This document shows, one piece after another, positions 16,354 through 54,981 of a DNA stretch of 64,000 nt. The DNA is taken from assembly GCF_900091495.1 (NCBI RefSeq), contig NZ_LT607413.1, positions 186,001 to 250,000 on the forward strand, written 5' to 3'. A model generated the notes under the pieces. It was not told where the DNA came from. It saw only the letters and a list, made by a program, of their open reading frames with translations, and did not search any database. This DNA is from Micromonospora echinospora. Its GTDB lineage: Bacteria; Actinomycetota; Actinomycetes; Mycobacteriales; Micromonosporaceae. The number at the start of each line of letters is the position of its first letter. The stretch's first letter is position 1. Position numbers and translations under genes: made by a program.

Positions 16354-16380
16354 GCGGTCCTCCCGTACAGTCCTGCCCAG

Positions 16381-17034: not shown

Positions 17035-17078
17035 CCGACGCCCCGACCCGTCACCCCGACGCGCCGCAATCCGGGCCA

Positions 17079-17114: not shown

Positions 17115-17170
17115 CGGCGCGGGTGGGTGAGCCGGGGCGGGGCGGTCCCGAGCCGGGCCGCCCGGCGACG

Positions 17171-38618: not shown

Positions 38619-38704
38619 GGGTGGTAGCAGGGGCCCCCTGTTACCGCTTTTTGTCGTGCAGGGGTCCCCTGCTACCACCCACCCCCACACCCCCTGCTAC
38701 CGCC
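38619..38704. repeat. Nested GC-rich inverted repeats, bidirectional terminator
   Basis: Bases 38619-38637 and 38661-38680 form near-perfect inverted arms (GGGTGGTAGCAGGGG with CCCCTGCTACCACCC). Each arm is itself a small palindrome (CAGGGGNCCCCTG). A third partial arm, CCCCTGCTACCGCC at 38691-38704, includes the TAG stop of the minus-strand dehydrogenase. The loop holds a TTTTT run. It separates two convergent genes and resembles a dispersed repeat family that I recall from Micromonospora genomes. Confidence 0.75.
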
Positions 38705-39779
38705 CGGTGGCGACACGCGCCGGGCGCACACCACCCCGGGCGGCCTCCTCGCCGTACGGGGCGATGAACACCTTGTCGGCCTCGCCACCGCCCTGCGCCC
38801 GCAACGCGCGGGTCACCTCGTCCACGCCGTAGAACGCCGGCCGCAGCCGGTCCAGCCCGAGAGTCGGCAGCAGCCCCACCGCGCGGTGGTGGGTGTACGG
38901 GTTGATCACCGCCCCGACGATGGTCAGTTCCCGGGCGAAGATCTCGTTCGGGCGGATCCGTGCCTCGTCCTGCGGTCGGGCGACCCCGAAGACCAGGATG
39001 CGTCCGCCCCGGCTCGCCATCTCCACCGCCGATTCGAGGATCCGGGCCGAGCCGACCGCGTCGACCACGTACGGGAAGCCGAGGCCGTCGGTGTGGGCGC
39101 GGGCCGCCTCGGCGCTGCCCGGTTCGCCCGGGTCGAGGGCCGCGTCGGCGCCCATGCGCAGCGCCAGGTCCCGCCGGTCCGGGCGGGGGTCCATCACCAC
39201 GATCGGGGCGAGTCCGCGCGACCGGGCCAGCGCCACCATCATCGCCCCGGCCGGACCGGCCCCGTAGATCAGCACGGGCAGGCCGGAGCGGGGGTCGAGC
39301 TGGTCCATGCCGTGCACGCAGCACGCCAGCGGCTCGGTGAGCGCCCCGATCCAGGGCGGGGTGTCCGGCGGCAGCCGGTAGGCGATCCGGGCGGGCAGCA
39401 CCATCCGTCCGGTCATGCCACCGTCGAGGCGCACCCCGTAGCCCCGCTTGTGGTCGCAGAGGTGCTCCTGGCCGAGACGGCAGTAGACGCAGGTGGTGCA
39501 GTAGTCGTGCGGCTCGACGGTGACCAGGTCACCGGGGGTGAGCCGGTCGACGTCCGGTCCGACCTCCGTGACCCGGCCGCAGACCTCGTGGCCGAGCACC
39601 ACCGGGTAGGCCGCCGGGAAACTGCCGCCGACGATGTGGCTGTCGGTGCCGCAGACCCCGACGGCCAGCGGGGCGACGGCCACCTCGCCGGGACCGGGGG
39701 GACGGGTCGGCACCCGCTCGGTGCGGACGTCCCCGGGGCCGTGGCACCGTACGGCGAGGACGGTGTCAGCAGGCGGCAC
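38697..39779 (-). CDS. Zinc-dependent MDR dehydrogenase (threonine/sorbitol dehydrogenase-like)
   Basis: 360 residues. Catalytic zinc: GVCGTDSH and GHEVCG; structural zinc: the four cysteines of CTTCVYCRLGQEHLC. The nucleotide fold starts at VLIYGAGPAGAMMVAL. Start GTG 39779 has AAGGAGC 7 nt upstream and overlaps the end of the GntR gene by 14 bp. It oxidises a sugar alcohol, sugar or hydroxy acid. As last gene of the operon from 49293, it likely acts on an intermediate of the same pathway. Confidence 0.9.
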   Translation of the reverse strand: MPPADTVLAVRCHGPGDVRTERVPTRPPGPGEVAVAPLAVGVCGTDSHIVGGSFPAAYPVVLGHEVCGRVTEVGPDVDRLTPGDLVTVEPHDYCTTCVYCRLGQEHLCDHKRGYGVRLDGGMTGRMVLPARIAYRLPPDTPPWIGALTEPLACCVHGMDQLDPRSGLPVLIYGAGPAGAMMVALARSRGLAPIVVMDPRPDRRDLALRMGADAALDPGEPGSAEAARAHTDGLGFPYVVDAVGSARILESAVEMASRGGRILVFGVARPQDEARIRPNEIFARELTIVGAVINPYTHHRAVGLLPTLGLDRLRPAFYGVDEVTRALRAQGGGEADKVFIAPYGEEAARGGVRPARVATGR

Positions 39780-40467
39780 GCAGCAGCTCCTTGAGTCGTC
39801 GGATGTGCGCCCGCGCCGCCTCACCGGCGGCGTCCGGGTCACCGGAGCCGAGCGCCTCGAAGATGGCCTGGTGTTCGGCGACGGCCTGGACCATGCCGCC
39901 GGTGAGGCTGGTCGACCGCATCGCGATCATGACCCGCCCCTGGACGCCGTCGAGCATCCGGATCAGCACCGGGCTCTGCGCGGCCTGCCGGATCTCCCGG
40001 TGGAACGCCGCGTCGAGTTCGATGTGCCGGGCGAAGTCGCCGGCCTCGGCGACCTCCCGGTGCTCGGTGAGCAGGGCGAGCAGGCGGCGGCGCAGCGCCG
40101 GGGTGTAGCGTTCGGCGGCCAGCCGGGCGACCGCCCACTCCAGCGCCTCGCGGGCCTCGTAGAGGCTGACCAGTTCCTCGCCCTCGATCCGGGCGACGAC
40201 CGCGCCCCGGTTCATCTCCTCCCGGGCCAGGTCGTCCTGGACCAGCCGGATCACCGCGTCGCGGACCGGGCTGCGGCTGACCCGGAACTCCTCGGCCAGG
40301 GCGGGGACGCTGAGCCGGGCCCCGGGGCGCAGCTCCCCGGAGATGATCCGGTCCCGGAGGGTGCGGTAGATCAGCTCACCCACCCGCTCGCCGGTCTGGA
40401 GGTCGGTGTCCGGCGGGAGCACCGGCAGCGTCAGGGCGGACGACCCCGACGGGACTTGTGTCGTCAC
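39766..40467 (-). CDS. GntR-family (FadR/FCD) transcriptional regulator
   Basis: 233 residues. The winged helix YRTLRDRIISGELRPGARLSVPALAEEFRVSRSPVRDAVIRL is at about 30-75, followed by the all-helical FCD domain with the metal-binding pattern EAREALEWAVARLA, FHREIRQA and AEHQAIFEAL (Asp/His ligands). It would repress until a sugar acid or similar ligand binds. GTG 40467 follows GAGGTCACCA. Its gene is within the operon it likely controls; the operator candidate is the palindrome at 49318-49331. Confidence 0.88.
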   Translation of the reverse strand: MTTQVPSGSSALTLPVLPPDTDLQTGERVGELIYRTLRDRIISGELRPGARLSVPALAEEFRVSRSPVRDAVIRLVQDDLAREEMNRGAVVARIEGEELVSLYEAREALEWAVARLAAERYTPALRRRLLALLTEHREVAEAGDFARHIELDAAFHREIRQAAQSPVLIRMLDGVQGRVMIAMRSTSLTGGMVQAVAEHQAIFEALGSGDPDAAGEAARAHIRRLKELLRAAC

Positions 40468-40475
40468 TGGTGACC

Positions 40476-41384
40476 TCACTCGTGTGGCTGGGGCCCGTCG
40501 GGCACCGCGGCGAGGAAGGCGGCGGCGAACCGCCGGTAGTTCGCGGCGACCGTCGCCACCGCCCGGGGCCGGGCCAGGTCCCCGGCGAGCAGCCCGCGCA
40601 GTGCGTCCCACCAGATGCTACGTCCGATAGCGAAGCCGGTGAATCCAGCGCCGGCCGCATCGGTCAGCCACTGGTCGACCTGCGGCGCGGGGGCGTTCGC
40701 GCCGAGCAGGATGCACTCCCCGCCGGTCTCGGCGGCGATCCGGTCGGCGGTGCGGTAGTGCTCCGGCGCGGCGAGGTGCTCCAGTTTCCAGACGTCCACC
40801 GGCATGTCGGTGAGGATCTCGGTCATCGCCCGGTGCACCAGGGCGGGACGCAGTTCCCGGTCGAACCGTCCGCTGTCGCCGCCAACCGAGTCGAGCTGGG
40901 CGGGGGTGGGCGGCACGAGCAGCTCGAACAGGAACCGGCCACCGGCGTCGCGGGCGGCGGTGGCGACCTCGGCCAGTCGTTCCCGCTGCACCCGGTTGCC
41001 GTCGGCGTCGCCCTCCACGTTGTAGCGGACCAGCACCTTCGACAGGTCGGGGCGGTGGTGGTCCAGGTAGGACTTCAGGTCCGCCGGTTCGGTCTCGTAG
41101 ATCTCGCAGCCGCCCCGCTCCACCGGCATGCTGACGGTCACCCCGTGCGCGCGGGCCCGCTCGGGGACGCCCGCGCCGAGGGTGTCGTCGACGAGGATGC
41201 CGGCGTGCGCGGCGAGGCGCGGCTCGTCGGCCAGCGCGGCGAGCAGCCCCTCAGCCACCATGTGCTTGCCGTCGCAGATGGCCGCGCGCTGCGCGGGCGT
41301 GGCGGTCCCGGTGTGGCCGTAGAGCGCCTTGGTGAGCCAGGGCCGCTGGTCCACGGCGAGGATGAGCAGGTGCCGCTGGTTCAT
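40476..41384 (-). CDS. DUF2090 class I aldolase-like protein
   Basis: 302 residues. LLILAVDQRPWL, GILVDDTLGAGV, FELLVPPT, VDVWKLEHLA, CILLGANA and GFAIGRSIWWD fit DUF2090, the C-terminal domain of some IolC proteins, thought to be 2-deoxy-5-keto-gluconate-6-phosphate aldolases. The Lys in VWKLEH is the likely Schiff-base residue. The end of the barrel with AIGRSIWWD resembles the phosphate/anion site of YihT and LacD aldolases. It probably cleaves a ketose-phosphate made by the PfkA-like kinase of this operon; substrate is inferred. Confidence 0.8.
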   Translation of the reverse strand: MNQRHLLILAVDQRPWLTKALYGHTGTATPAQRAAICDGKHMVAEGLLAALADEPRLAAHAGILVDDTLGAGVPERARAHGVTVSMPVERGGCEIYETEPADLKSYLDHHRPDLSKVLVRYNVEGDADGNRVQRERLAEVATAARDAGGRFLFELLVPPTPAQLDSVGGDSGRFDRELRPALVHRAMTEILTDMPVDVWKLEHLAAPEHYRTADRIAAETGGECILLGANAPAPQVDQWLTDAAGAGFTGFAIGRSIWWDALRGLLAGDLARPRAVATVAANYRRFAAAFLAAVPDGPQPHE

Positions 41385-42385
41385 CGGGCGTCCTCCGAGA
41401 CGATGCAGGGCTTGAGGTAGTCACCGGCGACGAAGCGGGCGAAGGCGTCGGGCAGGTCGGCGAGGGCCAGCGGGACGGTCAGCCGGTCCCGCAGGGCCGC
41501 GCCGGAGTCCCGCAGCAGGTCCCAGTTCGCCTCGACCTCGCTGGTGGGGAAGTAGAACGAGCGGATGGTGAAGCAGTCGGTCCGCCGCCAGCGGGGCGTC
41601 GCCGGCATGGCGTACGGCTGGTCGGACTCGCCGAGCACGACGACCGCGCCGCCCGGGGCGACCACGCGCTGCGCGGTCTCCCGGGCGGCGGTGGCTCCGC
41701 TGACCTCGATCACCAGGTCGTACTGGTTCTCGGAGTCGAGGTCTTCGGCGGCCCGCGCGCCGAGCGCGACGGCGGTGGCCAGCCGGCCCTCGTGCGGGTC
41801 GGCAACGTCGACCGCGCCGACGCCGAACGCGCCGGCCACGGAGATCACCCCGAGCCCCAGCGGTCCGGCGCCGACGACCAGGGCTCGGTCCACCCCGTCG
41901 GGTTGGACGCGCTGCCACAGCCGCAGCGCGTGCGCGGCGGTGCCGACCGTGTCCAGGCCTAGCACCGCCGTGGTCAGCGGCACGTCGTCGGGGACCGGGA
42001 GCAGGCACCGGGCAGGTACGTCGACGTGCTCGGCGAAGCCGCCGTCGCGCTGCCAGCCGATCAGTTGGGTCAGCCGCAGGCACTGGTTGGTGCGCCCGGC
42101 CGCGCAGCGTCGGCAGGTGCCGCAGAAGACCGGGATGTAGACGATGGCGCGGGTGCCGGTGGGCAGGTCGACCCCGGCGCCGGTCTCGACGACGGTGCCG
42201 CCGATCTCGTGGCCGGGCACCACCGGCGAACCGGAGCGCAGCAGCCGCTTGTCCGAGCCGCACAGGGCGCAGACGTCGACGCGCAGGCGTACCTCGCCGT
42301 CGGCGACCGGGCCGAGGGTGACCGTGTCGAAGTCGATCCGGCCGTCGCCCGGGAACCGGGCACGGACGCTGGTGGTCGTCGTCAC
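41381..42385 (-). CDS. Zinc-dependent alcohol/polyol dehydrogenase
   Basis: 334 residues. Catalytic zinc region CALCGSDKRLL and GHEIGGTV; structural zinc Cys in CGTCRRCAAGRTNQC. The Rossmann turn is VVGAGPLGLGVISVAGAFG. It differs clearly from the other MDR enzyme at 38697. GTGA overlap with the permease and ATGA-type overlap with the aldolase show tight coupling. It probably oxidises an alcohol group of the imported compound. Confidence 0.9.
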   Translation of the reverse strand: MTTTTSVRARFPGDGRIDFDTVTLGPVADGEVRLRVDVCALCGSDKRLLRSGSPVVPGHEIGGTVVETGAGVDLPTGTRAIVYIPVFCGTCRRCAAGRTNQCLRLTQLIGWQRDGGFAEHVDVPARCLLPVPDDVPLTTAVLGLDTVGTAAHALRLWQRVQPDGVDRALVVGAGPLGLGVISVAGAFGVGAVDVADPHEGRLATAVALGARAAEDLDSENQYDLVIEVSGATAARETAQRVVAPGGAVVVLGESDQPYAMPATPRWRRTDCFTIRSFYFPTSEVEANWDLLRDSGAALRDRLTVPLALADLPDAFARFVAGDYLKPCIVSEDAR

Positions 42386-43203
42386 TTGACGGCACCTCCG
42401 GTGATTCCACGTACCAGCCACCGCTGCGCGAAGATCGTCAGCAGCAGCGCGGGCACTGAGATGAGCGTGCTGGCGGCCATCAACCCGCCGAAGTCGTTGG
42501 AGCCCTGCCCGATGAAGTTGAACGCGATGACGGTCAGCGGCAGGGTCCGGTCGTTCGCCAGGGCCAGCGCGAACAGGAAGTAGTTCCAGGAGAAGACGAA
42601 GCTGAGCGTCAGCGCGACGGAGACGCCCGGCATGGCCAGCGGCAGGACGACGCTGCGGAACCGCTGCCAGGTGCTGGCCCCGTCGATGAGCGTGGACTCC
42701 TCGATGCTGATCGGGATGTCCTCGAAGAACGGGATCAGCAGCCAGATGCAGAGCGGCAACGTGATGATCAGGTGCGCCACGATGAGCAGGGCGTAGTTGA
42801 GCCCGGTGTTCGACGGGGCGTCGATGCGGATGGAGAGGACGAACAGCGGCAGGACGAAGAGCACGCCCGGCGCCATCCGGGCGAGCAGCGTGACGAAGCC
42901 CAGCGTGTTGAGCTGCCGCCGGACCACCACGTACGCGGCGGGGGCGCCCAGCACCAAGCCGAGCAGCGTGGACCCACCGGCGACGACGAGGCTGTTGACG
43001 ATGTAGCGGCCGAACTCGAACCGCTCGAACAGGTTGGTGAAGTTCTCCAGCGTCAACGGCGAGCCCACGTCGAACAGGGAGCCGGTGATGTCGACGTTGC
43101 GCCGCAGCGACGACCAGAGCATGAACAGCACCGGACCGAAGAAGATCACGGCAAAGAAGGCGTACGCGGTGTAGACGCCGACCAGCCGCTTGCCCGTGTT
43201 CAC
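42382..43203 (-). CDS. ABC sugar transporter permease (MalG type)
   Basis: 273 residues with six spans; the EAA-like loop is EESTLIDGASTWQRFRSVVLPL. GTG 43203 overlaps the stop of the partner permease and is preceded by AAGGAGGG. It forms the importer with the genes 43200-44153 and 44161-45453; no ATPase gene is present. Confidence 0.92.
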   Translation of the reverse strand: MNTGKRLVGVYTAYAFFAVIFFGPVLFMLWSSLRRNVDITGSLFDVGSPLTLENFTNLFERFEFGRYIVNSLVVAGGSTLLGLVLGAPAAYVVVRRQLNTLGFVTLLARMAPGVLFVLPLFVLSIRIDAPSNTGLNYALLIVAHLIITLPLCIWLLIPFFEDIPISIEESTLIDGASTWQRFRSVVLPLAMPGVSVALTLSFVFSWNYFLFALALANDRTLPLTVIAFNFIGQGSNDFGGLMAASTLISVPALLLTIFAQRWLVRGITGGAVK

Positions 43204-44153
43204 TTCGCGGCCCTCCTTCGTACCAGGGTGAAGACACCGGCGATGAGCACGACCAGCACCAGCAGGGCGATCTGGAGGGTGGCGGCGTAGCTCGGCTCCT
43301 GGTCGACGAACGCCTCGTTGTAGCCGTACACGTTGAGGGTGTTCGTGGCGTCGACCGGACCGCCCTGGGTCATGATGTAGATGGTGTCGAAGAACCGGAC
43401 GAGGTCGACGGTGCGCAGCAGCATCGCGACGGTCAGCACCGGACGCAGCAGCGGCAACCCGATGTTCCACGCGGTACGCCAGCCGCTGGCACCGTCGATG
43501 GAGGCCGCCTCGAACGGCTCCTCGGGCAGCGACCGGATCCCGGCGGCGATGATCAGCGCCATGAACGGCGTCCACTGCCAGATGTCCACCAGGGCGATCG
43601 ACCAGGGGGCGATCTCCGGGTCACCGAGCCAGACCACCGGGTCGATCCCGATCACGGCGAGCAGTTCGTTCGCCGCGCCCAGGCTCGGGTCCATGATCAG
43701 CAGCCAGAGCAGGCCGACCGCCACCGACGCGGTGATCGCCGGGATGAGCATCATCCCCTGGAAGATCCGCCGGCCCGGGACGTCGAGGCTCATCACGTAG
43801 CCGAGTGCGAGTCCCAGCAGGGTCTCCACGAACAGGCAGACCACGAAGAGGAAGAGCGTGACCTTCAGCGAGTTGTAGAAGGCCGGGTCGGCGAACATCG
43901 CCGCGTAGTTGTCGAAGCCGAGGAAGCCGGCGTTCGTGCCGTCGGACTGCCGGTCGGTCACCGACAGCCAGACCGTGTACCCGATCGGCAGCAGGACCAG
44001 CAGGGCGGTGACCGCCGCCGCCGGCACCACGAAGGGCCAGATCCCCCGGGCCGTCGGGTGGACGGAGGTCCGCCTGCGGCGGCCCCCCGGCCCCCGCCCG
44101 GCCGGAGCGGGGCGGGGGACGGATGAGCGTGTCGTCGTCGTGTCGGTGCTCAT
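43200..44153 (-). CDS. ABC sugar transporter permease (MalF type)
   Basis: 317 residues, cytosolic N-terminal 35 residues rich in Arg/Pro/Gly then six spans. The EAA loop EEPFEAASIDGASGWRTAWNIGLPLLRP is complete. ATG 44153 lies 7 nt after the binding-protein stop. Part of the CUT1-type importer of the 49293-38697 operon. Confidence 0.92.
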   Translation of the reverse strand: MSTDTTTTRSSVPRPAPAGRGPGGRRRRTSVHPTARGIWPFVVPAAAVTALLVLLPIGYTVWLSVTDRQSDGTNAGFLGFDNYAAMFADPAFYNSLKVTLFLFVVCLFVETLLGLALGYVMSLDVPGRRIFQGMMLIPAITASVAVGLLWLLIMDPSLGAANELLAVIGIDPVVWLGDPEIAPWSIALVDIWQWTPFMALIIAAGIRSLPEEPFEAASIDGASGWRTAWNIGLPLLRPVLTVAMLLRTVDLVRFFDTIYIMTQGGPVDATNTLNVYGYNEAFVDQEPSYAATLQIALLVLVVLIAGVFTLVRRRAAK

Positions 44154-44160
44154 GGGATAC

Positions 44161-45453
44161 CTACTGGGTGTTCTTCGCCAGCAGCGGGGTGAGGCCGGTC
44201 TGGATCTCCTTGGCCGCTTCCTCGGCGCTGGCCCGGCCGAGGATCACCTTGCCCACGGCGTCGCCGATGACCTTGCGCATCTCGGCGGCCGCGACGCCGA
44301 CCGGGCCGACCTCGGTCTCACCGCCGGTCTGCGCCTTGGTCAGCGCGGTGTTCCACTGCTTGAGGGTCTCGGTGTTCAGGGTGGCGGTGTAGGCCGGGTC
44401 CTGGCTGACCGAGGTGCGCGGCGGGGCGATGCCCGCCTTGGTCAGCTCCAGCTGGGTCTCGGCGCTGGTGGCCCACTGGACGAACTTCCAGGCGGCGTCC
44501 TTGTTCTTCGAGAATGAGGAGATCGCCAGGCCCCAGGAGAGCACGGTGGTCTTCGACCCGGCGGAGCCGGCGGGGAAGTCGAGCACCCCGATGTTCTCGG
44601 CGACCTTGGAGGTCTTCGGGTCGACGATGCTGCTCAGCTCGTTGCTGGACTCCAGCTCCATGGCCGCGTCACCGGCGGCGAACAGGGCGGAGGACTGGGT
44701 GAAGGTGTTGTTGACCACGCCGGGCGGGCCGTACTCGCGGGCCAGGGTGGCGTAGCGGTCGATCGCGGCGACCGCCTTCGGGTCGTCGAAGTTCGGGGTC
44801 CCGTCGTCCTTGGTCCACTTCACGCCCTCGGAGTGCAGGAACGGGCCGAAGGTGAACGGCAGCGCCGCGGACTGTCCGCGCAGCGCGATCGGGGTGACCT
44901 TGCCGCCGGACTTCTGCTTGATCTGCTCGGCGGCGGTGGTCAGCTCGTCGAGCGTGGTCGGGGGCTTGACGCCGTACTGCTGGAACAGGTCGGTGCGGTA
45001 GTAGAGCACCACGCCCTCGACGTTGATCGGCGCGGCGATCATCTTGTCGTTCACGGTCATCCCGGCGCGGACCGCCTCCGGGAAGTCGTCGACCTTGTAC
45101 TCCGTCGCCCCACCGGCCCGCTCGTCGAGCGGCTCGTAGTAGTTGGCCTTGGCGAACTGCGGGCCCTCCCGGGACGGCAGCGTCATGAACACGTCCATCG
45201 ACGAGCTGCGGGACTGGAGGTTGAGCTGCACCTTGTCCCGCATCTGCTGCTCGGCGAAGGTCTGCACCTTCACCGTGACACCGGACTCCTGCTCGAACTC
45301 GTCGATCAACGGCTCGATGGCCCGCTGCCAGGGGTGGTTGGACATGATCAGGTTGATCTCGTTGGCGGAGCCGGCGGAGTCCGAACCGCAGCCGGCGGTG
45401 AGCCCGCCGATCAGGGCCAGGGCGAGCGCCGTGCTCAGGTACCTGTGCCGCAT
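44161..45453 (-). CDS. ABC transporter sugar-binding lipoprotein
   Basis: 430 residues. Lipobox LTAGC gives the acylated Cys at 22. The mature part INLIMSNHPWQRAIEPLIDEFEQESG, DVFMTLPSREGPQFAKANYYEPL and APINVEGVVLYYRTD follows the MalE-like extracellular solute-binding fold. Ligand specificity cannot be read, but if the operon handles a sulfosugar this protein should show a cationic or Ser/Trp-rich anion pocket. GAAAGG lies before ATG 45453. Confidence 0.92.
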   Translation of the reverse strand: MRHRYLSTALALALIGGLTAGCGSDSAGSANEINLIMSNHPWQRAIEPLIDEFEQESGVTVKVQTFAEQQMRDKVQLNLQSRSSSMDVFMTLPSREGPQFAKANYYEPLDERAGGATEYKVDDFPEAVRAGMTVNDKMIAAPINVEGVVLYYRTDLFQQYGVKPPTTLDELTTAAEQIKQKSGGKVTPIALRGQSAALPFTFGPFLHSEGVKWTKDDGTPNFDDPKAVAAIDRYATLAREYGPPGVVNNTFTQSSALFAAGDAAMELESSNELSSIVDPKTSKVAENIGVLDFPAGSAGSKTTVLSWGLAISSFSKNKDAAWKFVQWATSAETQLELTKAGIAPPRTSVSQDPAYTATLNTETLKQWNTALTKAQTGGETEVGPVGVAAAEMRKVIGDAVGKVILGRASAEEAAKEIQTGLTPLLAKNTQ

Positions 45454-45479
45454 GGTGTGCCTTTCCGATTCGAGGGATG

Positions 45480-46589
45480 TCACTCGGTGACGAGGGGGGC
45501 GAGCCATCGGTGGAATTCGTCGAGTTCGGCCGGGTCGGTGGTGCGCCACTCCGGCGGTACGGGTCGGGTCCGGCCGGCGACGTCGGCCAGCGGCACCGGG
45601 TCGTACCCGGCCGCGTACGGGTCGGTGCCGGTGCGGTGCAGCCCGACCATGAGCCCGGTCGCCTTCTCGGCGAGCAGCCGCGCCGCGCACCGGCCGGCCT
45701 CCGCCGCCTCCCGGCGGTCCACCCCGCTGGCCAGGGCGGCGGCCGAGCGCTGCACCATGCCGAGGACCTCGCCCCGGGCGACCACCCCCAGTTCGGCGGT
45801 GACCAGGGCGGCCAGCCGGCGGGACACGCCGCCGGTCAGGATGCGGGTGTGGTTGACCGCGTCGAAGGGCTCGTCGGTCAGCTCGCGGGCGGCACCCTCG
45901 CTGGTCACCACGAACGCCCGGCCGTGCGCGTCGAGGGTGTCGGAGACCCGGTGGAGGAACTCCGCGGAGTCGAACGGCACCTCGGGGAGGAGCACCAGGT
46001 GCGGCGCGTGCGCCGGGTCGTCCCGGTGCCGGGTCGCGGCGAGCGCCAGCCAGCCCACCGACCGGCCCAGGGTCTCCACGATCCGCACCGGCTCGATCGA
46101 CCGCATGGCCGCGTGGTCCCGGGCCAGGTCCGGTACGACCGTGGCCAGGTACCGTGCGGCGGAGCCGAACCCCGGGCAGTGGTCGACACCGACCAGGTCG
46201 TTGTCGACGGTCTTCGGGATGCCGACCGTGCACAGCGGCAGCCCGGCCCGCTCCGCGCGTTCGGTGAGCGCCGCGAGCAGGGCCATCGTGCCGTTGCCGC
46301 CGATCAGCGCGACCCCGTCGACGCGGTGCGCGGCGAGCGTGGCCACCGCCGCGTCGAGGTCGTCGTCGGTGACCGCCCGGCGGCCCGCACCGAGCCAGGA
46401 TCCGCCCCGCCGGGTCCACTCCGGCGGCACGTCGGCGAGGGTGGCCGGGGTGAACCGGCCGTCGACGAGCCCGTCCGGGCCACCGCGCAGGGCGAGCACG
46501 TCGTGCCCCTGCGCGCCGTCGAGGAAGCCGCGCAGGCTCGCGTTGACCACGCTGGTCGGGGCCCCGGTCTGGCCGATGAGCAGGCGCAT
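45480..46589 (-). CDS. PfkA-type 6-phosphofructokinase-like sugar (phosphate) kinase
   Basis: 369 residues. IGQTGAPTSVVNASLRGF, IGGNGTM (97-102), GIPKTVDNDL (catalytic Asp in TVDND, 128-131) and PGFGSAARYL match the PFK family. The motif GGNGT replaces GGDGS, and Lys126 in PKTVDND is the residue seen in PPi-using PFKs, while the Gly at 100 is of the ATP type; phosphate donor is therefore unclear. The C terminus (from 300) differs from glycolytic PFK. In this operon it probably phosphorylates a ketose (or ketose-6-derivative) ahead of the aldolases. Confidence 0.82.
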   Translation of the reverse strand: MRLLIGQTGAPTSVVNASLRGFLDGAQGHDVLALRGGPDGLVDGRFTPATLADVPPEWTRRGGSWLGAGRRAVTDDDLDAAVATLAAHRVDGVALIGGNGTMALLAALTERAERAGLPLCTVGIPKTVDNDLVGVDHCPGFGSAARYLATVVPDLARDHAAMRSIEPVRIVETLGRSVGWLALAATRHRDDPAHAPHLVLLPEVPFDSAEFLHRVSDTLDAHGRAFVVTSEGAARELTDEPFDAVNHTRILTGGVSRRLAALVTAELGVVARGEVLGMVQRSAAALASGVDRREAAEAGRCAARLLAEKATGLMVGLHRTGTDPYAAGYDPVPLADVAGRTRPVPPEWRTTDPAELDEFHRWLAPLVTE

Positions 46590-46594
46590 GGCGG

Positions 46595-48058
46595 TCAGGC
46601 CCCCGCCGGGCGGGACGCGACGCTGAGGAAGGTCTGGAACGCCTCCAGCCCGGGTCGGCCGCCCTCGTAGCCGAGGCCGGAGTCACCGAGCCCGCCGAAC
46701 GGGATCCACGGCGTGTTCGGGGTGCCGGTGTTGACGCCGACGATGCCGGCGCGCAGCCGGCCGGCGACCGCGTGCGCCGCGTCCAGGTCGGTGCCGCAGA
46801 CGTAGCCGGCGAGTCCGTACCCGGTGGCGTGGTGCAGCGCCAGCGCCGCGTCGAGGTCGTCGTAGACGTGCACCGGGGCGACCGGCCCGAAGATCTCGCT
46901 GGTCATGGCGAGGCTGTCCACGGGCGCGTCGAGCAGGACGGTCGGGGTGGCGTAGTGCCCGACGGTCGGGGTCGGGGCGTCCGGGGTGACCGCGCGGGCG
47001 CCCTTGGCGACGGCCTCGTCGACCAGTTCGGCCATCCGGGCCGGGTCGCCGGCCGGGGCGAGCGGCCCGAGGTCGGTGCCGGGGTCCCGGGGGTCGCCGA
47101 CGGTCAGCGCCCGGGTGGCCGCGACGAACGCCTCGGTGAAGTCGGCGGCGACCTCCCGGGCGACCAGGATCTGGTTGGCGGCGATGCAGGACTGGCCGTT
47201 GTTGCGGTACTTCGCCACGACCAGGGTCGCCGCGGCGGCCTGCGGGTCGGCGTCCGGCAGGACGACGAACGGCGCGCAGCCGCCCAACTCCAGGACGGTC
47301 CGCAGGAACCGCGGCGCCGCCTGGGCGGCCACCAGTCGGCCGACCCGGGTCGACCCGGTGAACGAGACCGCCTGCACGGCCGGGTCCGACAGCCACGGGT
47401 CGACCACGTCGGCGGGGGTGCCGAGCACCGTGCCGAGCACCCCGACGGGCAGGTGCCGCTCGCAGACGGCGGCGAGCACCAGGGACGAGACCGGGGTCAG
47501 CTCGGACGGCTTGAACAGCACCGGGCAGCCGGCGGCGAGCGCCGGGGCGATCTTCCGGGCCGGGATGGAGACCGGGAAGTTCCACGGGGTGAGCACGGCC
47601 GCGACGCCGACCGGTCGGGCGGCGACCCGGTGCTCGTGCTGCGGCACCACGGTCAGCCGCTGCTCCTCCTGCCGCTCGACGAGGTCGGCCATGACCCGGA
47701 AGTAGGTGACGGTCAGCCCCAGCTCGGCGGTGGACTCGGCCAGCCGCTTGCCGGTCTCCCGGGTGATCAGCGCCGCCCACTCCGGCCGGGTCGCCAGGGC
47801 CTCGACGTCGTCGGCGATCGCCCGCAGGGCGGCGGCCCGCTGCGGCACCGGGGTCGCCGCCCAGGTCGGCAGCACGGCGGTGGCGGCGGCGAGCGCCCCG
47901 GTGGCCTCGGCGACACCGCCGGTGGCGACCTCGGTGAAGGCGTCGCCGGTGGCCGGGTCCACCACCGGCAGCACCGGGCCGGAGGCGTAGGACTCCGTCC
48001 CGACGCGCACCGCGCTCCGGGCCGCGAGTACCGCGTCGACGATGGAAAAGTCGGTCAC
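46595..48058 (-). CDS. NAD(P)-dependent aldehyde dehydrogenase (SSADH-like)
   Basis: 487 residues. Catalytic Cys291 in NNGQSCIAANQ, Glu in LELGGCAPFVV, nucleotide-binding FTGSTRVG and TPWNFPVSIPARK are all present; the group is that of succinate/glutarate semialdehyde dehydrogenases. Related proteins oxidise sulfolactaldehyde in some sulfoglycolysis pathways. GTG 48058 overlaps the stop of the upstream gene (GTGA). It likely oxidises the aldehyde released by the aldolase step. Confidence 0.9.
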   Translation of the reverse strand: MTDFSIVDAVLAARSAVRVGTESYASGPVLPVVDPATGDAFTEVATGGVAEATGALAAATAVLPTWAATPVPQRAAALRAIADDVEALATRPEWAALITRETGKRLAESTAELGLTVTYFRVMADLVERQEEQRLTVVPQHEHRVAARPVGVAAVLTPWNFPVSIPARKIAPALAAGCPVLFKPSELTPVSSLVLAAVCERHLPVGVLGTVLGTPADVVDPWLSDPAVQAVSFTGSTRVGRLVAAQAAPRFLRTVLELGGCAPFVVLPDADPQAAAATLVVAKYRNNGQSCIAANQILVAREVAADFTEAFVAATRALTVGDPRDPGTDLGPLAPAGDPARMAELVDEAVAKGARAVTPDAPTPTVGHYATPTVLLDAPVDSLAMTSEIFGPVAPVHVYDDLDAALALHHATGYGLAGYVCGTDLDAAHAVAGRLRAGIVGVNTGTPNTPWIPFGGLGDSGLGYEGGRPGLEAFQTFLSVASRPAGA

Positions 48059-49293
48059 AGCTGCTCCTCGTACGGGTCGAGCTGGTCCGGATCGAGGTCG
48101 ATCCCGAGACCGGGGCGGTTCGGCACGACGACCGTGCCGTGGTCGGTCAGGAAGGCGTCGGCGGCCCGGCGCAGCGGGTTGGAGCGCACGTCCCACTCGA
48201 CGAGGGACGTCGCCGGGCTGCTCGCGGCCACCTGCACGGTCGCGGCGGTCGCGATCGCGCCGTTGTAGAGGTGCGGGTTGACGGTCTTTCCCGCCGCCTC
48301 GGCGGCCCGCAGCACGGTCAGGTACTCGCTGATGCCGCCGACCTTGGTGAGGTCCGGTTGGAGGATCGCGACCCCGTCGCCGGCCAGGTACGGGGTGAAG
48401 GCCGCCGCGCCGTAGAGGTTCTCGCCGGTGGCCAGGGGCATGCCGGTGCGGGCGGCGAGTTCGTCCAGTTCCGCCGGTCGGTCACCGGCGAGGGGCTCCT
48501 CGACCCAGGCGACGCCGAGGTCGGCGAGGGCCGGCACCGTCCGCAGCGCCTCCGGCAACGTCCACGCCTGGTTGGCGTCGGCGAAGATCTGCGTGGCGTC
48601 GCCGAGTACCCGCCGGGCGGTGCGGACGTTGGCGAGGTCCCGGTCGTGGCCGAAGCCGACCTTGACCTTGACGGCGGTCAGGCCGAGCGCCGCGCAGTGC
48701 GCCGCGGTCTCGGCGACGCCCTCCGGGCCGAGGCTCGAACCGTAGACGGGCAGCTCGGCGCGGGGGTGGTCGGTGAGCAGCGACGCCAGGCTCCGCCCGG
48801 CGTGCCGGGCGGCCAGGTCCCAGAGCGCGATGTCGACGGCGCTCACCGCCTGGTGGATCGGGCCGGGGGCACCCCACTGCCGGCCCAGCGGGCCGAGCTT
48901 CGCCATCAGGGCACGGTGCGCCGCCTCGGGACTGCCCGGCCGGGTGCCGACCAGCAGCGGCGCCACCCCCTCGTCGATCGTCCAGATCCGCTCCCGCCAG
49001 GCCCAGGACGGGTAGTTGGCCCAGCTCTCGCCGACGCCGACCGAGCCGTCGGCGAGGACCACCTCCACCAGGACCATCACCCGGTGGCTGAGCGGGGCGA
49101 AGGACATCGCGATCAGCTCGTCGGGGCGGGCGCGGAACACCCGGCAGCGCACCTCGGCGACGGGGGCGTCGGGCAGTCGCGGGGCCGCCCCGGCGGGGGC
49201 GACGGCGTCGACCGGGTGGCCGTCGGCCGACTCGGTCACGTCCTCGACCGCCACCCGGTCCACGAGGTGGTGCAGATCTCGACTGGAGCCCAT
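48055..49293 (-). CDS. Enolase-superfamily enzyme (mandelate racemase subgroup dehydratase/racemase)
   Basis: 412 residues, about 40 longer at the N terminus than the family core, which starts near PVAEVRCRVF. Catalytic set: Lys209 and Lys211 (KVKVG), metal ligands Asp239, Glu265 and Glu291, and His341 (NPHLYNG). This is the KxK plus His-Asp dyad of mandelate racemase and several acid-sugar dehydratases or epimerases. ATG 49293 has GAGAGG upstream. It is the first gene of the ten-gene operon. Reaction could be dehydration or epimerisation of a sugar acid; not readable further. Confidence 0.88.
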   Translation of the reverse strand: MGSSRDLHHLVDRVAVEDVTESADGHPVDAVAPAGAAPRLPDAPVAEVRCRVFRARPDELIAMSFAPLSHRVMVLVEVVLADGSVGVGESWANYPSWAWRERIWTIDEGVAPLLVGTRPGSPEAAHRALMAKLGPLGRQWGAPGPIHQAVSAVDIALWDLAARHAGRSLASLLTDHPRAELPVYGSSLGPEGVAETAAHCAALGLTAVKVKVGFGHDRDLANVRTARRVLGDATQIFADANQAWTLPEALRTVPALADLGVAWVEEPLAGDRPAELDELAARTGMPLATGENLYGAAAFTPYLAGDGVAILQPDLTKVGGISEYLTVLRAAEAAGKTVNPHLYNGAIATAATVQVAASSPATSLVEWDVRSNPLRRAADAFLTDHGTVVVPNRPGLGIDLDPDQLDPYEEQL

Positions 49294-49317
49294 GAGTCCT
49301 CTCTCACACCTGTGAAC

Positions 49318-49357
49318 AACTGCATGCAGTTCTAGCCGTCGTTCATCGAGCGGTCAA
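49318..49357 (-). promoter_or_regulatory. Promoter and palindromic operator of the sugar operon
   Basis: On the minus strand TTGACC (49352-49357), a 17-nt spacer, and TAGAAC (49329-49334) form a good sigma-70-type promoter. Overlapping the -10 and the expected start point is the 14-bp perfect palindrome AACTGCATGCAGTT (49318-49331), of the type bound by GntR/FCD repressors. A smaller palindrome TCACACCTGTGA (49304-49315) follows. The rest of the 358-base gap 49294-49651 holds no gene. The GntR protein at 39766-40467 is the likely ligand-responsive repressor. Confidence 0.8.
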
Positions 49358-49651
49358 GAGCTGGAAACAAACCGGAGCACCACGATCAGGCAACGGAGGC
49401 GGCGAGATCGGACACCGCACACCAGACCGGACAGTCGTCCCCGGCGACGTCGCCGGTACTGGTTGATCGACTCCGGTTCGGCGAGACCGGCGTGACACAG
49501 CCGCCCGCACACCGCGACACCGGCGACCTGCGCGGCCAGCGAACGCCGGGCCCGGCCATGGAGGTGGCGGGGCCGCGCGGGCCGGGGCGGGTGGGACGGC
49601 CGGCCACCAGGGCGGCGGGACCGCGCGGTCAGCGGCCGGGCGGTGGGCGGG

Positions 49652-50434
49652 TCAGGCGGGGACGACCCGGATGCCGTTGCGGCGCACCGCCCCGGCCACC
49701 GGCTCGGGCAGCGGCGCGTCGACGACCAGGGTGTCGATCCGGTCGAGCCCGCAGACCTGCACCGGGGCAGCCGCGGTGAGCTTGCTGGCGTCCACCAGCA
49801 GGACGATCTCGTCGGCGATCTCCATCAGCGCGTGCTTCGCGCTGAGTTCGATCTCCGAGCGCACGTAGACCCCACGGTCGTCGACCGCCCCGGCGCCGAG
49901 GAACAGCGTCCGGATCCGTAACCGCCGGGTCAGGTCCCGGACCCCGAAGCCGACCAGGGCCTGGTTGTCGTGCAGCAGTTCGCCGCCGATGCCGATCACC
50001 CGGGCCCGGGGGCGCGACAGCATGTGCCCGAGCACGGGCACCGAGTGGGTGACCACGCACCCGTCGAACTCCGCCGGCAGGGCGTGCGCGACCTCGGCGG
50101 CCGTGGTGCCACTGTCGATGCCGATGGTGTCGCCGGGCCGCACCATACGGGCGGCGGCGGCGCCGATGGCCTGCTTGGCCCGGGTGTGGGTCTGCGCCCG
50201 GGAGGCGAACCCGGGGCCGGCGACGCCGCCCGGCGGCAGGCTCACCCCACCGTGGACGAGCGTGACCTCGTTGGCCTCGGCGAGCTGGCGCAGGTCCCGG
50301 CGGACGGTCATCTGCGAGACGCCGAGCTGGGCGCTGAGTTCGGCCACGGAGAGGAAGCCCGCTCGGCGCAGCGCGGCCATGATCTGCGTGCGACGCCGGG
50401 GGGCGCCCTCGTACCGAGCCGTCTCGACGCTCAC
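49652..50434 (-). CDS. DeoR-family transcriptional regulator
   Basis: 260 residues. The N-terminal winged helix has LSVAELSAQLGVSQMTVRRDLRQL and VHGGVSL, the DeoR signature; the C-terminal domain (about 80-250) is the ribose-5-phosphate-isomerase-like sensor with IGIDSGTTAAEVAHAL and LVDASKL. It responds to sugar phosphates. GTG 50434 has AGGAGG 7 nt upstream. It is divergent from the YihT-like aldolase; in E. coli the sulfoquinovose genes are controlled by the DeoR-type YihW (CsqR), so the arrangement is suggestive. Confidence 0.9.
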   Translation of the reverse strand: MSVETARYEGAPRRRTQIMAALRRAGFLSVAELSAQLGVSQMTVRRDLRQLAEANEVTLVHGGVSLPPGGVAGPGFASRAQTHTRAKQAIGAAAARMVRPGDTIGIDSGTTAAEVAHALPAEFDGCVVTHSVPVLGHMLSRPRARVIGIGGELLHDNQALVGFGVRDLTRRLRIRTLFLGAGAVDDRGVYVRSEIELSAKHALMEIADEIVLLVDASKLTAAAPVQVCGLDRIDTLVVDAPLPEPVAGAVRRNGIRVVPA

Positions 50435-50505
50435 GCCGGGCCTCCTGCCGATCGCCCACACGGGTTCGTCGGAAGTTTAGAGCACCACAGCATCTGTTCG
50501 TTAGT

Positions 50506-50520
50506 TACCAAGCGATGGTA
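50506..50520. promoter_or_regulatory. Putative DeoR operator between divergent genes
   Basis: TACCA-AGCGA-TGGTA is a perfect 5-bp inverted repeat in the AT-richer region between the DeoR gene and the aldolase; the extended half GTTACCAA is echoed inverted in CTGGTAAT at 50536-50543. A regulator site here could control both directions. The pairing of this site with the DeoR protein is inference. Confidence 0.5.
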
Positions 50521-50557
50521 GGTTCCCAACATCTTCTGGTAATCCTGGGGAGGATCC

Positions 50558-51433
50558 ATGACCATCGCCACCGTGTCGCCCACCGTGTTGGCGCGTCCCT
50601 CCGGCGGCTACGCCATGCTCGCCGTCGACCAGCGGGAGGCCCTGCGGGCGATGTTCGCCGCGACGCAGGACCAGCCGGTGACCGACGAACAGATCACCGA
50701 CTTCAAGGTCGCGGCGGCCCGCGCGCTCAGCCCGTACGCCTCGGCGATCCTGGTCGACCGGCAGTTCGCCTGGGACGCCGTCCTCGCCGCGAACGCCGTC
50801 GACCCCGGGTGCGCCCTGATCGCCGCCGCCGACCGCTTCACCGGCAGCGCCACCGAGTTCGTCGCCGACGTCGCCATCGACGACGACGTCGACCCCGCCA
50901 CCGTCCGCGCCCAGGGCGCCAAGGCCCTCAAGCTGCTCGTCCTCTGGCGGCCCGACGAGGACTCCGCCGGCCGGATCTCGCTGGTGACCGACTTCGTCCG
51001 GCGCTGCCGCGACAACGGCCTGGTCAGCATCATCGAGCCGGTGTCCCGGGGCCCCCGCGACGGCGGCTCCTTCGACCACGACGCGGGCATCTTCGCCGCC
51101 GCCCGGGAACTCGGTTCGCTCGGCGCCGACCTCTACAAGGCCGAGGTCCCCACCGCCGGGAAGGGCACCGACGAGGAGATCCGCACCGGCTGCGCGAAGC
51201 TGACCGAAGCGATCACCGGCCCCTGGGTGGTGCTCTCCTCCGGCGTGCCCGCCGAGCGTTTCCCCGACGCGGTGCGCCTCGCCTGCGGGGCCGGCGCCTC
51301 GGGTTTCCTCGCCGGCCGGGCGATCTGGGCCTCTGTCGTCGGCAGCCCGACCATGGCCGACGACCTGCGGACCATCTCGGTGGACCGGTTGCGCCGCCTC
51401 TGCGACGTGGTCGACGACGCGGTGTCCCGCTGA
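50558..51433 (+). CDS. YihT-like class I aldolase (sulfofructosephosphate aldolase family)
   Basis: 291 residues, the length of E. coli YihT (292). Recognisable segments over the whole protein: SGGYAMLAVDQREALRAMF, TDFKVAAARALSPYASAILVD, GAKALKLLVLWR, SIIEPVSRGPR, GADLYKAEVP, WVVLSSGV and ASGFLAGRAIW. Lys194 in LYKAE is the Schiff-base lysine; Arg254 in LAGRAIW corresponds to the anion-site Arg. YihT splits 6-deoxy-6-sulfofructose-1-phosphate into DHAP and sulfolactaldehyde; the related LacD cleaves tagatose-1,6-bisphosphate. Resemblance to YihT is my recollection, not a database search. First gene of a plus-strand operon with a TauE/SafE exporter; GGGGAGG precedes ATG 50558. Confidence 0.85.
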   Translation: MTIATVSPTVLARPSGGYAMLAVDQREALRAMFAATQDQPVTDEQITDFKVAAARALSPYASAILVDRQFAWDAVLAANAVDPGCALIAAADRFTGSATEFVADVAIDDDVDPATVRAQGAKALKLLVLWRPDEDSAGRISLVTDFVRRCRDNGLVSIIEPVSRGPRDGGSFDHDAGIFAAARELGSLGADLYKAEVPTAGKGTDEEIRTGCAKLTEAITGPWVVLSSGVPAERFPDAVRLACGAGASGFLAGRAIWASVVGSPTMADDLRTISVDRLRRLCDVVDDAVSR

Positions 51434-51437
51434 CCCG

Positions 51438-52166
51438 GTGACCGGTCTCGGCGCTGTCCTCGCGGTGACGGCGGTCGCCCTCGGGGCGGCCATGCAGCGC
51501 GCCACCGGGCTCGGCTTCGCCCTGGTCGCCGCGCCCTTCCTGGTCATCATCCTCGGCCCGTTCTCCGGCGTCGTGCTGGCGAACCTGCTCTCCGCCGTGA
51601 TCAACGTCGCCGTCCTGTGCACCACCCTGCGCGGCCTGCGGGGCCGGCTGGCCGCCGAGATGATCGCCGGCGTCCTGGTCGCGGTCCCGCTGGGCGCGTG
51701 GGTGGTGACGGCGCTGCCCGGTCCGCTGCTGCTCATCGGCGTCGGCACGGTCACCGCGGCGTCCGTCGCCTGGGTCGCGCACGGCAACCCGGTGCCGATC
51801 CTGCGCCGACGGGGCGGGCCGCTGCTGTCCGGCTTCACCTCCGGCTTCTTCAACACCACCGCCGGCACCGGCGGCCCACCCCTGGCCGTCTACGCGCTGA
51901 GCACCAACTGGGAACAGCGCAGCTTCGTCCCGACCGTGCAACTCGTCGGCCTGGTCACCAACGTGCTCTCGCTGGCCGCCAAGGGTCCGCCGCAGCTGTC
52001 CTGGCCACTGCTGCTGTCCTGCGTCGCGGCGATGGCCGTCGGCCTCGCCGCCGGTCAGGTCCTGTCCCGCTGGCTGCCCGAGGACCGGGCCCGACGGTGG
52101 GTCGTCGCCCTGGCACTGATCGGCAGCGTCGTCGCCGCCGGAAAGGGAGTGACCGCACTGTGGTAG
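51438..52166 (+). CDS. TauE/SafE family transporter (sulfonate/sulfite exporter type)
   Basis: 242 residues with about seven or eight membrane segments in two halves. GLGFALVAAPFLVIILGP in the first half and SGFTSGFFNTTAGTGGPPLAVY in the second are the TauE/SafE repeats. Family members export sulfite, sulfoacetate, sulfolactate or other organic anions. It starts 4 nt after the aldolase stop, so the two are co-translated. In several described sulfoglycolysis clusters a TauE protein exports the C3 sulfonate, which would fit here. Confidence 0.88.
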   Translation: MTGLGAVLAVTAVALGAAMQRATGLGFALVAAPFLVIILGPFSGVVLANLLSAVINVAVLCTTLRGLRGRLAAEMIAGVLVAVPLGAWVVTALPGPLLLIGVGTVTAASVAWVAHGNPVPILRRRGGPLLSGFTSGFFNTTAGTGGPPLAVYALSTNWEQRSFVPTVQLVGLVTNVLSLAAKGPPQLSWPLLLSCVAAMAVGLAAGQVLSRWLPEDRARRWVVALALIGSVVAAGKGVTALW

Positions 52167-54198: not shown

Positions 54199-54845
54199 GC
54201 GCAGTTGTTGCTGGTGCGCCGGACCGTGTACTCGGTGTCGTCGTGGGTGATGCCGGACGGCTGCCCGTCGAAGTGGGCCTCGACCTTCTCCCAGCCCCGG
54301 CGCTGCTCGTAGTGCAGGTGCGGCGCACCGGAGTTGCCTGTGCTGCCCACCTTGCCGATCTGCTCGCCCTGCTCGACCCGCTGGCCGACCTCGACCATGG
54401 GCGGTTCGAGCAGGTGGAGGTACTGCGTCTCCCACCGACCGCCATGGTCGATCTTCACCCAGTAGCCGCCGCCCCGCCCGCGCGGACCGTCCGGGTCCTC
54501 CGGGGTACGGCCACCCAGCGACCCGTTGACGCCGGCCACGGTGACCGTGCCACTGTAGGACGCGAGCACCGGCCTCCCCCACGCCTCCCCCTCGGTGGGG
54601 AACAGGTCGACGTCGTAGTCGTCGTGTCCGGGGTAGGTGCCGAGCTGCCAGGTCTCGCCGCACGCGACGGGAAGCTGGAAGAGCGGTCGCGGCCCCGGCG
54701 GACGGACGAGCGGCACGACGACCACGGCGACGGCGACCAGGGCCGCGACCGCGCCGAGCGCCAGGACGGCGAGGAGGAGGCGGCTCCGGCGGGCGCGGTG
54801 GCTACGCGGTCGGGGCGGTTGGCCGGTGGTCACCGTTCCGAGCAT
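54195..54845 (-). CDS. Membrane-anchored M23 family peptidase
   Basis: 216 residues. After a basic N terminus one membrane helix (about 22-47), then an LytM domain. Zinc ligands: His and Asp in HDDYDVDL, and the HLHY motif (His-x-His) near the C terminus; QYLHLLEPPMVEVGQRVEQGEQIGKVGSTGNSG is the standard segment between them. It would cut peptidoglycan peptides or act as a regulator of hydrolases outside the cell. ATG 54845 is the best start; a GTG 9 nt downstream is an alternative. Stops of this gene and the phosphatase overlap in CTAG. Confidence 0.87.
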   Translation of the reverse strand: MLGTVTTGQPPRPRSHRARRSRLLLAVLALGAVAALVAVAVVVVPLVRPPGPRPLFQLPVACGETWQLGTYPGHDDYDVDLFPTEGEAWGRPVLASYSGTVTVAGVNGSLGGRTPEDPDGPRGRGGGYWVKIDHGGRWETQYLHLLEPPMVEVGQRVEQGEQIGKVGSTGNSGAPHLHYEQRRGWEKVEAHFDGQPSGITHDDTEYTVRRTSNNCA

Positions 54846-54981
54846 GGCAGACGCCGCCAAGACAGCGACTCCCGGCACCGGCGCGTCCAGAGCCGGCACG
54901 CCGAGCCAGGAATCCCAGCGGTCACCTCTTCGTGGATGGTGATCGACATGACGCCACGCCGATCCTCTCCGAGCAGGGTGG

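Follow-up and report, generated by a model that had tools for sequence, protein, structure and literature searches.

The question raised by the locus described here is how a sulfonated C6 compound could be degraded by a gene set that has a YihT-type aldolase and neither an aldose isomerase nor a sulfoquinovosidase (SQase). The locus is in the genome of Micromonospora echinospora (NCBI RefSeq assembly GCF_900091495.1), and the window, i.e., the whole stretch of 64,000 nucleotides that has been analyzed, covers positions 186,001 to 250,000 of contig NZ_LT607413.1. A sequence-only reading of this DNA had joined an aldolase, a TauE/SafE carrier and a divergent DeoR-family regulator into a sulfosugar-type module, and its coordinates and strands for these genes were correct on re-examination. 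The trio is only the right edge of a catabolic module of 13 genes (38697-52166), whose order is alcohol dehydrogenase 2 (ADH2), GntR, DUF2090 aldolase, alcohol dehydrogenase 1 (ADH1), a three-gene sugar ABC importer, PfkA-type kinase, aldehyde dehydrogenase (ALDH), an enolase-superfamily enzyme of the mandelate racemase subgroup (MR enzyme), DeoR, divergent YihT and TauE. With a probability of about 60%, judged from sequence comparison, the module serves for catabolism of a sulfonated C6 compound through a variant of sulfo-Embden-Meyerhof-Parnas (sulfo-EMP) sulfoglycolysis that works without an aldose isomerase. What is new is a predicted sulfo-EMP-type variant for which sequence alone does not settle the entry and enolase-superfamily steps. 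In the sulfur cycle, degradation of sulfosugars is a major arm, and genomes are screened for it with a few marker genes, isomerase and SQase included; a conserved route without these two would escape such screens.

The aldolase gene (50558..51433, plus strand) starts with ATG after GGGGAGG, and its predicted product of 291 aa is assigned to the class I aldolases for 6-deoxy-6-sulfofructose phosphate (SFP) or sulfohexulose-1-phosphate from Pfam (DeoC/LacD, 129.9 bits), PDB matches, a tree and conserved residues. In phmmer comparison, residues 11-289 match three YihT/SFP aldolase sequences in PDB with 292-300 bits (E 5e-86 to 2e-88), against 53-60 bits for nine LacD-type sequences and 56 bits for 8tnf, the title of which is sulfohexulose-1-phosphate aldolase of Paracoccus onubensis strain Merri. 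The likeness to YihT seen by the earlier reading is borne out by these scores, by 52% identity to the Escherichia coli enzyme and by the tree. The Schiff-base lysine that it pointed out and the phosphate-loop arginine are kept in the alignment (K194 for E. coli K193, and R254 of FLAGR for R253); since both are common to all 31 aligned rows, they are not YihT-specific. At S228 in the LSSGV motif, 15 of the 31 rows have Ser, all of them members of the YihT clade, and the remaining 16 have Asn, Gln or Ala.

In a maximum-likelihood tree of 35 rows (support is given as paired values), the module aldolases form one clade (95/89) within a 16-row clade (100/98) that contains E. coli YihT, and the aldolases of comparison loci L117, L118, L157 and of five clusters with an SftI-like isomerase (L008, L045, L046, L107, and L108) are also included. 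One LacD-like and two 8tnf-like rows are outside the YihT clade, and the doubt whether the aldolase belongs inside a LacD clade, raised with its first assignment, is answered by its grouping with YihT. The module aldolase nests among those of the five isomerase clusters, which have PfkB kinases; an ALDH is present in four of them and TauE in two (L046 and L108). By these comparisons the aldolase is of the YihT type, apart from LacD-like enzymes, and sulfohexulose phosphate is the best guess for its substrate, so that the earlier proposal of sulfofructose phosphate or a close analogue may stand.

The same five clusters represent a second, sulfo-EMP-like cluster type of Micromonospora and other actinobacteria (L045, positions 7797-19901; L046, L107, L108, and L008), with DeoR, PfkB kinase, YihT (62-66% identity), SftI-like isomerase, ABC and GH31 genes, and in some cases M24 peptidase, ALDH and TauE. 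Its GH31 enzyme is alpha-xylosidase-like in L045 and may be an unrecognised type of SQase.

The earlier reading had noticed that no YihS-type isomerase and no SQase is in the window, and this holds for the whole own genome, where YihS gave no match and the best GH31 protein has 250.8 bits against the YihQ cut-off of 553 (named control genomes were also below this cut-off and genome G451 above it). Its further supposition that the pathway is completed elsewhere is not borne out: kinase, ALDH and importer adjoin on the minus strand (40476-49293), and searches of the own genome with SftI and YihS for an isomerase were negative. Among ten genomes searched with the SftI-like isomerase of L008, none was found in the own and six others, while matches were obtained in G340 and G451 and a weak partial one in G232; because G340 and G451 have sulfoquinovose (SQ) clusters, the search works. 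In the same ten genomes, YihS had a match in G241 only, and no GH188 SQase was found with a putative representative as query (Gfo/Idh of L118, E<=1e-40, without positive control).

A presence table of 37 loci gives a clue to the entry step. The eight loci with an SftI-like isomerase have no match to ADH1 or ADH2 (E<=1e-10), whereas 28 of the 29 loci without it have one or the other, L118 being the exception; the loci in this 8-versus-28 count are not independent, many being orthologues, and in L053, L054, L057, L058 and L109 the dehydrogenase match has 27-34% identity only. Presence of the solute-binding protein (SBP) is split almost identically (28 of 29 loci without SftI versus one of eight with it), and YihS matched none of the 37 loci. 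The mutual exclusion of dehydrogenase and isomerase, together with the SBP split, suggests that a different substrate is imported and is turned into a ketose by a dehydrogenase.

Two plasmid loci in this comparison have features of their own. L117 (positions 1177-11774, plasmid pB of Cereibacter sphaeroides) has a YihT-like aldolase (60% to that of the window), YihV-like kinase, tartrate dehydrogenase, MDR dehydrogenase and ALDH with no isomerase match, and thus presents the same isomerase-free puzzle in a model organism. L118 (1644-15140, a plasmid of Arthrobacter sp. YA7-1 typed as conjugative) combines within its cluster an Entner-Doudoroff (ED)-type and an EMP-type sulfosugar arm, with genes for an SDR, DgoD-type dehydratase, dihydrodipicolinate synthase (DHDPS)-type aldolase, SMP-30 lactonase, PfkB kinase, YihT-like aldolase, ALDH and TauE.

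The block is conserved in gene content. Aldolase matches were found in 34 of 300 genomes of the family at E<=1e-20, eight of which, the own included, have at least 79% identity, and in four of 396 phylum genomes, again with the own, at E<=1e-40; a scan of the genome collection with the aldolase gave six loci. Within the group of loci called clade A, 11 genes (those for DUF2090 aldolase, ADH1, permeases C and B, SBP, kinase, ALDH, MR enzyme, DeoR, YihT and TauE) are complete in 11 of the 11 sufficiently long loci (L003, L004, L005, L007, and L038-L044), which correspond to nine distinct loci besides the window, since L005 and L041 are one contig, as are L007 and L044, and the remaining pairs have <=96% DNA identity. 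On the short contig L006, the MR, DeoR, YihT and TauE genes were seen, and TauE adjoins YihT in all 12 clade A loci, L006 included. No match to YihS, YihV or YihQ was obtained in clade A loci at the thresholds used. Beyond the family, comparison with 394 class genomes gave matches to DUF2090 in 10 (E<=1e-15) and to the MR enzyme in 10 (E<=1e-50), the own genome being counted both times; G823, G881 and G864 match both, and their loci (L146, L148, and L149) bear the block, with all 13 genes in L148 and without TauE in L146.

Searches with SBP and the MR enzyme led to sister clusters on plasmids of the Rhizobiaceae genera Shinella, Rhizobium and Neorhizobium (L160-L163). The order in L160 of Shinella is LacI, SBP, permeases B and C, ADH, UgpC, kinase, aldolase, ALDH, SDR, MR enzyme and TSUP exporter, with LacI set apart from the rest, and identities to the module are 40% for SBP, 42 and 44% for the permeases, and 36% each for ALDH and MR enzyme; its ADH is 43% identical to ADH1 and 29% to ADH2. 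The four clusters share with the module related SBP and permeases, ADH1, MR enzyme and TSUP exporter (as well as ALDH in L160 and L161), with no isomerase match. They differ in having a YihV-type kinase and an 8tnf-type aldolase instead of the PfkA-type kinase and the YihT and DUF2090 aldolases, and LacI and SDR instead of DeoR/GntR and ADH2. The L160 kinase is 44% identical to E. coli YihV, its best PDB match being sulfofructose kinase (217 bits, next 166), and the L160 aldolase matches 8tnf over the full length with 492 bits, against 135 for the best LacD and 70 for YihT. Two lineages therefore share importer, ADH1, MR enzyme and TSUP exporter, and in each of them the kinase and the aldolase are of types that have a link to sulfohexuloses elsewhere; nothing speaks more strongly for conversion of the substrate to a sulfohexulose. 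L163 adjoins sulfatase genes. No literature on the Rhizobiaceae cluster was found by a search that did not name these genera, and the term sulfohexulose was absent from the open literature searched.

In the route that we propose, kinase, aldolase and ALDH steps (3 to 5) are drawn from homology and co-conservation, and steps 1, 2 and 6 we infer. A CUT1-type ABC importer would bring in the sulfonated substrate (step 1); it is composed of SBP (44161..45453), permease B (43200..44153) and permease C (42382..43203), all on the minus strand. The first was assigned by Pfam, the second by Pfam and comparison with Shinella, and the third by 44% identity to an annotated Shinella permease; permease C was left out of the Pfam scan, which took in 12 of the 13 module proteins. 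An NAD-dependent MDR zinc alcohol dehydrogenase, ADH1 and/or ADH2, would then oxidise, for example, a 6-sulfohexitol to 6-deoxy-6-sulfohexulose in place of YihS or SqvD (step 2). ADH1 (41381..42385, minus strand), the proposed entry enzyme, was recognized by Pfam within a longer frame and is the one with 43% identity to the Shinella enzyme, and ADH2 (38697..39779, minus strand) has relatives of 62-63% in L146 and L148, 55% in L056 and 41.5% in L117. The PfkA-type kinase would phosphorylate O1 (step 3), and the YihT-type aldolase may cleave the 1-phosphate to dihydroxyacetone phosphate (DHAP) and sulfolactaldehyde (step 4), with the DUF2090 aldolase perhaps acting on another epimer. The latter (40476..41384, minus strand; Pfam) is a class I aldolase that retains the catalytic K200 and the phosphate loop; a second DUF2090-type stretch, of 35% identity and with one in-frame TGA in the match, is found in the own genome at C1:5089305-5090204. 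Sulfolactaldehyde would be converted to sulfolactate by ALDH (46595..48058, minus strand; Pfam), a proposed sulfolactaldehyde dehydrogenase with about 40% identity to the ALDH of L117 and L118 (step 5). Finally, the MR enzyme may act on the acid, and TauE may export sulfolactate or sulfite (step 6).

The kinase (45480..46589, minus strand; PF00365, 157 bits) is a proposed sulfohexulose kinase that replaces YihV, the PfkB-type sulfofructose kinase for which no match was found in the module. We call it SqiK-like because SqiK of sulfo-EMP2 is a PF00365 kinase in the excerpted text of PMC9594981, a likeness at the level of the family. Matches at E<=1e-30 occur in 31 of 396 phylum genomes, the own included, and the nearest outside relatives are in G340 (48%) and G451 (46%), the next having 39%. 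In both genomes the kinase gene directly adjoins a gene for an L-fucose-isomerase-like (SftI-like) protein, with YihQ and SuyB-like genes alongside, and a more distant relative in Chlorohelix (36%) is also beside an SftI-like isomerase gene. In L105, the isomerase has 494.6 bits with the NCBIfam sulfoquinovose isomerase model (cut-off 700) and YihQ has 832 bits (cut-off 553), with SuyB-, ComC- and PGDH-like genes near. Among 38 aligned rows the kinase motif is GGND in 21, GGNG in 13, GGEG in three and GGGD in one, and the GGNG rows are the eight module rows, L105, L106, L122, L080 and L081. Asp at this position is the usual signature of pyrophosphate (PPi)-dependent enzymes.

The MR enzyme (48055..49293, minus strand; Pfam) retains the K-x-K motif (K209 and K211), three metal ligands (D239, E265, and E291) and the Asp-His dyad (D314-H341) of its subgroup. 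Its nearest PDB sequence is 3ddm (215 bits), named putative only, and its Pfam pair PF13378/PF02746 is the same as that of the sulfogalactonate dehydratase SfcF, a likeness at the level of the family. Relatives adjoin IlvD-type genes in L150, L177 and L178, the first two also having a 2-keto-3-deoxy-6-phosphogluconate (KDPG)- or HpcH-type aldolase that L178 does not; others are found with a tripartite transporter and GntR (L151) or a GMC/choline dehydrogenase (L175 and L179). The MR gene overlaps the TSUP exporter gene by 4 nt in L160, and TauE overlaps an MR-type gene by 4 nt in L176 (positions 4138-14887 of a plasmid of Sulfitobacter sp. THAF37), where fumarase-like, succinate dehydrogenase-like and tripartite transporter genes are neighbours. 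L176 could encode a tricarboxylic acid cycle-like 3-sulfopropanoate route, from sulfopropanoate through sulfoacrylate to sulfolactate. In a tree of 24 rows, the TauE-linked MR enzymes do not form one clade.

Since no keto-deoxy acid aldolase is annotated in L160 and L161, the C3 acid sulfolactate is favoured as substrate of the MR enzyme, which makes a role as sulfolactate sulfo-lyase possible. In a fuller form of the proposed route, which we consider doubtful, ADH would make sulfohexulose from an unrecognised natural sulfohexitol, the MR enzyme would be a sulfolactate sulfo-lyase of a new type giving pyruvate and sulfite, and TauE would export the sulfite. It is supported by sulfolactate being the only alpha-hydroxy acid of the route, by the overlaps between TSUP/TauE and MR genes and by the lack of a SuyB match in the own genome (SuyB is present in four of the ten genomes searched). 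Among the matches listed from the open literature, none mentioned mandelate racemase, and enolase superfamily and a sulfonate word occurred together in two, both on other subjects. The exporter (51438..52166, plus strand; Pfam TauE, 72.2 bits), a predicted TSUP protein with a GTG start, begins 4 nt past the aldolase stop. As for the earlier statement that carriers of this type export C3 sulfonates, TauE of C. necator is indeed cited for sulfolactate export in the accessible text of PMC8873060, and the title of a reference calls it a sulfite exporter.

The minus-strand genes run leftwards from 49293 with intergenic gaps of -14 to 53 nt, and 4-nt overlaps are seen for the pairs MR-ALDH, permease B-permease C, permease C-ADH1 and ADH1-DUF2090. 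A distance of 358 nt separates the MR gene from the upstream gene of the DeoR-family regulator (49652..50461, minus strand; Pfam DeoRC and HTH_DeoR), which, as the earlier reading had described, is divergent from the aldolase gene, with a gap of 96 bp; the clade A orthologues of this regulator share 29-31% identity with CsqR (YihW). The palindrome AACTGCATGCAGTT at 49318..49331, upstream of the MR gene, is a proposed operator of the left operon. All 13 module loci examined have its core TGCATGCA upstream of MR, nine of these as part of CTGCATGCAG, and neither of two non-module MR loci has it. A DeoR operator region (TTACCA...TGGTAG and GATGG...AACATC) is proposed by eye at 50505..50542 from conservation in the divergent gap, where TACCA-n3..8-TGGTA is found in 3 of 11 loci only. 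Because the conserved sequences in the two regions differ, two regulators probably control two operons: DeoR may act on yihT-tauE, and the GntR/FCD regulator (39766..40422, minus strand; Pfam) would probably act on the minus-strand operon. Downstream of TauE, the window contains a GAF-SpoIIE phosphatase-type regulator on the same strand (52984-54198), an M23 peptidase (54195-54899) and a beta-lactamase-family serine hydrolase (56180-57370), the latter two assigned by Pfam.

Several observations, besides the dependence among the loci of the presence table, weigh against the isomerase-free sulfo-EMP variant. To our knowledge, no sulfohexitol is a known natural product, and sulfohexitol-type words were not found among the listed sulfosugar matches in the open literature. 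G241, a clade member, has a YihS homologue elsewhere in the genome (41%, 324 bits), so an unlinked isomerase is possible, and L118 has neither an isomerase nor an MDR enzyme but an SDR. The best NCBIfam models for ALDH are succinate-semialdehyde dehydrogenases; ALDH was looked for and not found in L162 and L163, and L149 is without ALDH, TauE and ADH2. The only NCBIfam cut-off passed by the kinase is that of a PPi-fructose-6-phosphate phosphotransferase subfamily (277 vs 273 bits), a model passed also by the L105 kinase (328.7 bits), and in the kinase tree the module groups with L105/L106 at weak support (80/43), with L122 elsewhere. The SftI-like isomerases are under the model cut-off of 700 (495 in L105 and 281 in L008), and the left operon and yihT-tauE seem to be under different regulators.

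Three other explanations have been compared with this variant. Two arms may coexist: in the first, SQ or sulfofucose would be oxidised at C1 by an MDR enzyme, the sulfoaldonate would undergo an SfcF-like dehydration by the MR enzyme and DUF2090 would cleave the keto-deoxy acid, and the second would be an EMP-type arm of kinase and YihT. SfcF belongs to PF13378/PF02746 and the Merri cluster also has a PF00294 kinase and a PF01791 aldolase, according to the part of PMC12421959 used here; L118 joins both sets of genes, and MR relatives are found with IlvD-type genes and KDPG- or HpcH-type aldolases as described above. We nevertheless hold two arms to be unlikely, as there is no lactonase, PF03328, DHDPS or KDPG aldolase among the 12 Pfam-scanned module proteins, DUF2090 retains the phosphate loop of DHAP-type aldolases, and the annotated L160 and L161 have the MR enzyme with one aldolase only, of the 8tnf type, which would leave a keto-deoxy acid without its aldolase there.

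Still less probable is ordinary sulfo-EMP of SQ, in which an unlinked or unrecognised isomerase (YihS-type, a promiscuous Pgi or an unassigned module enzyme) would give sulfofructose for kinase and YihT, and the other genes would form a neighbouring sugar-acid pathway. The YihS homologue of G241 is in its favour, and so are Arthrobacter AK01 and AK04, which use yihS, yihV, yihT, GabD and ABC genes, AK04 also TauE, in the consulted portion of PMC8873060; but YihS is missing from nine and a strong SftI match from eight of the ten genomes searched, the own included, there is no YihQ-level SQase in the own genome, and MR enzyme, ADH1 and ABC genes accompany kinase, aldolase and TSUP exporter in L160-L163 too. 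A carboxylated ketose such as a heptulosonate as the substrate, with an aldehyde product leading to tartrate, for which TtuC would be responsible in related clusters and the MR enzyme in the module, appears very improbable. Some enolase-superfamily enzymes are tartrate dehydratases, and tartrate dehydrogenase is encoded in clusters whose aldolases are of the same family (551 bits in L117, cut-off 470; homologues of 52-54% in L053, L054, L056, L057, and L109). Against this, the aldolases of five of the six TtuC loci have LSNGV instead of LSSGV (L117 has LSSGV), TauE/TSUP is present in the module and in Rhizobiaceae, the kinase is SqiK-type, E. coli YihT is within the aldolase clade, and the best PDB matches of the Shinella enzymes are sulfofructose kinase and 8tnf.

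If the isomerase-free variant is true, soil bacteria would encounter a sulfonated C6 compound that is not sulfoquinovose, or make sulfofructose in another way, and if the MR enzyme releases sulfite, it would represent a new class of desulfonating enzymes. The module shares with E. coli sulfo-EMP (yihS-yihT-yihV-yihU) the YihT-type aldolase and a DeoR-family regulator, and with the Arthrobacter variant, as far as the text of PMC8873060 at hand describes it, also the ABC importer, an aldehyde dehydrogenase and, in AK04, TauE. It differs from sulfo-EMP in being without YihS, the YihV-type PfkB kinase, YihU and SQase, and adds a PfkA-type kinase, a DUF2090 aldolase, two MDR dehydrogenases, the MR enzyme and GntR. 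With sulfo-EMP2 (SqvD, SqiK, and SqiA; excerpt of PMC9594981) a PF00365 kinase is shared, whereas the aldolase is of the class I YihT type and not PF01116, and an SqvD/SftI isomerase is not present; PF01116, the family of SqiA, was not found in the 12 scanned module proteins, the rest of the genome not having been searched. For Paracoccus strain Merri, PMC12421959 describes a sulfofucolytic ED pathway with an SDR (PF13561), lactonase, PF03328 aldolase and SuyAB, families that are not seen in the 12 scanned proteins; it shares with the module an enolase-superfamily enzyme, ABC importer, MDR dehydrogenase, PF01791 aldolase and kinase in one cluster. The same paper leaves it as an open point that the kinase and aldolase pair of Merri is not raised on sulfofucose, and the module bears on this point.

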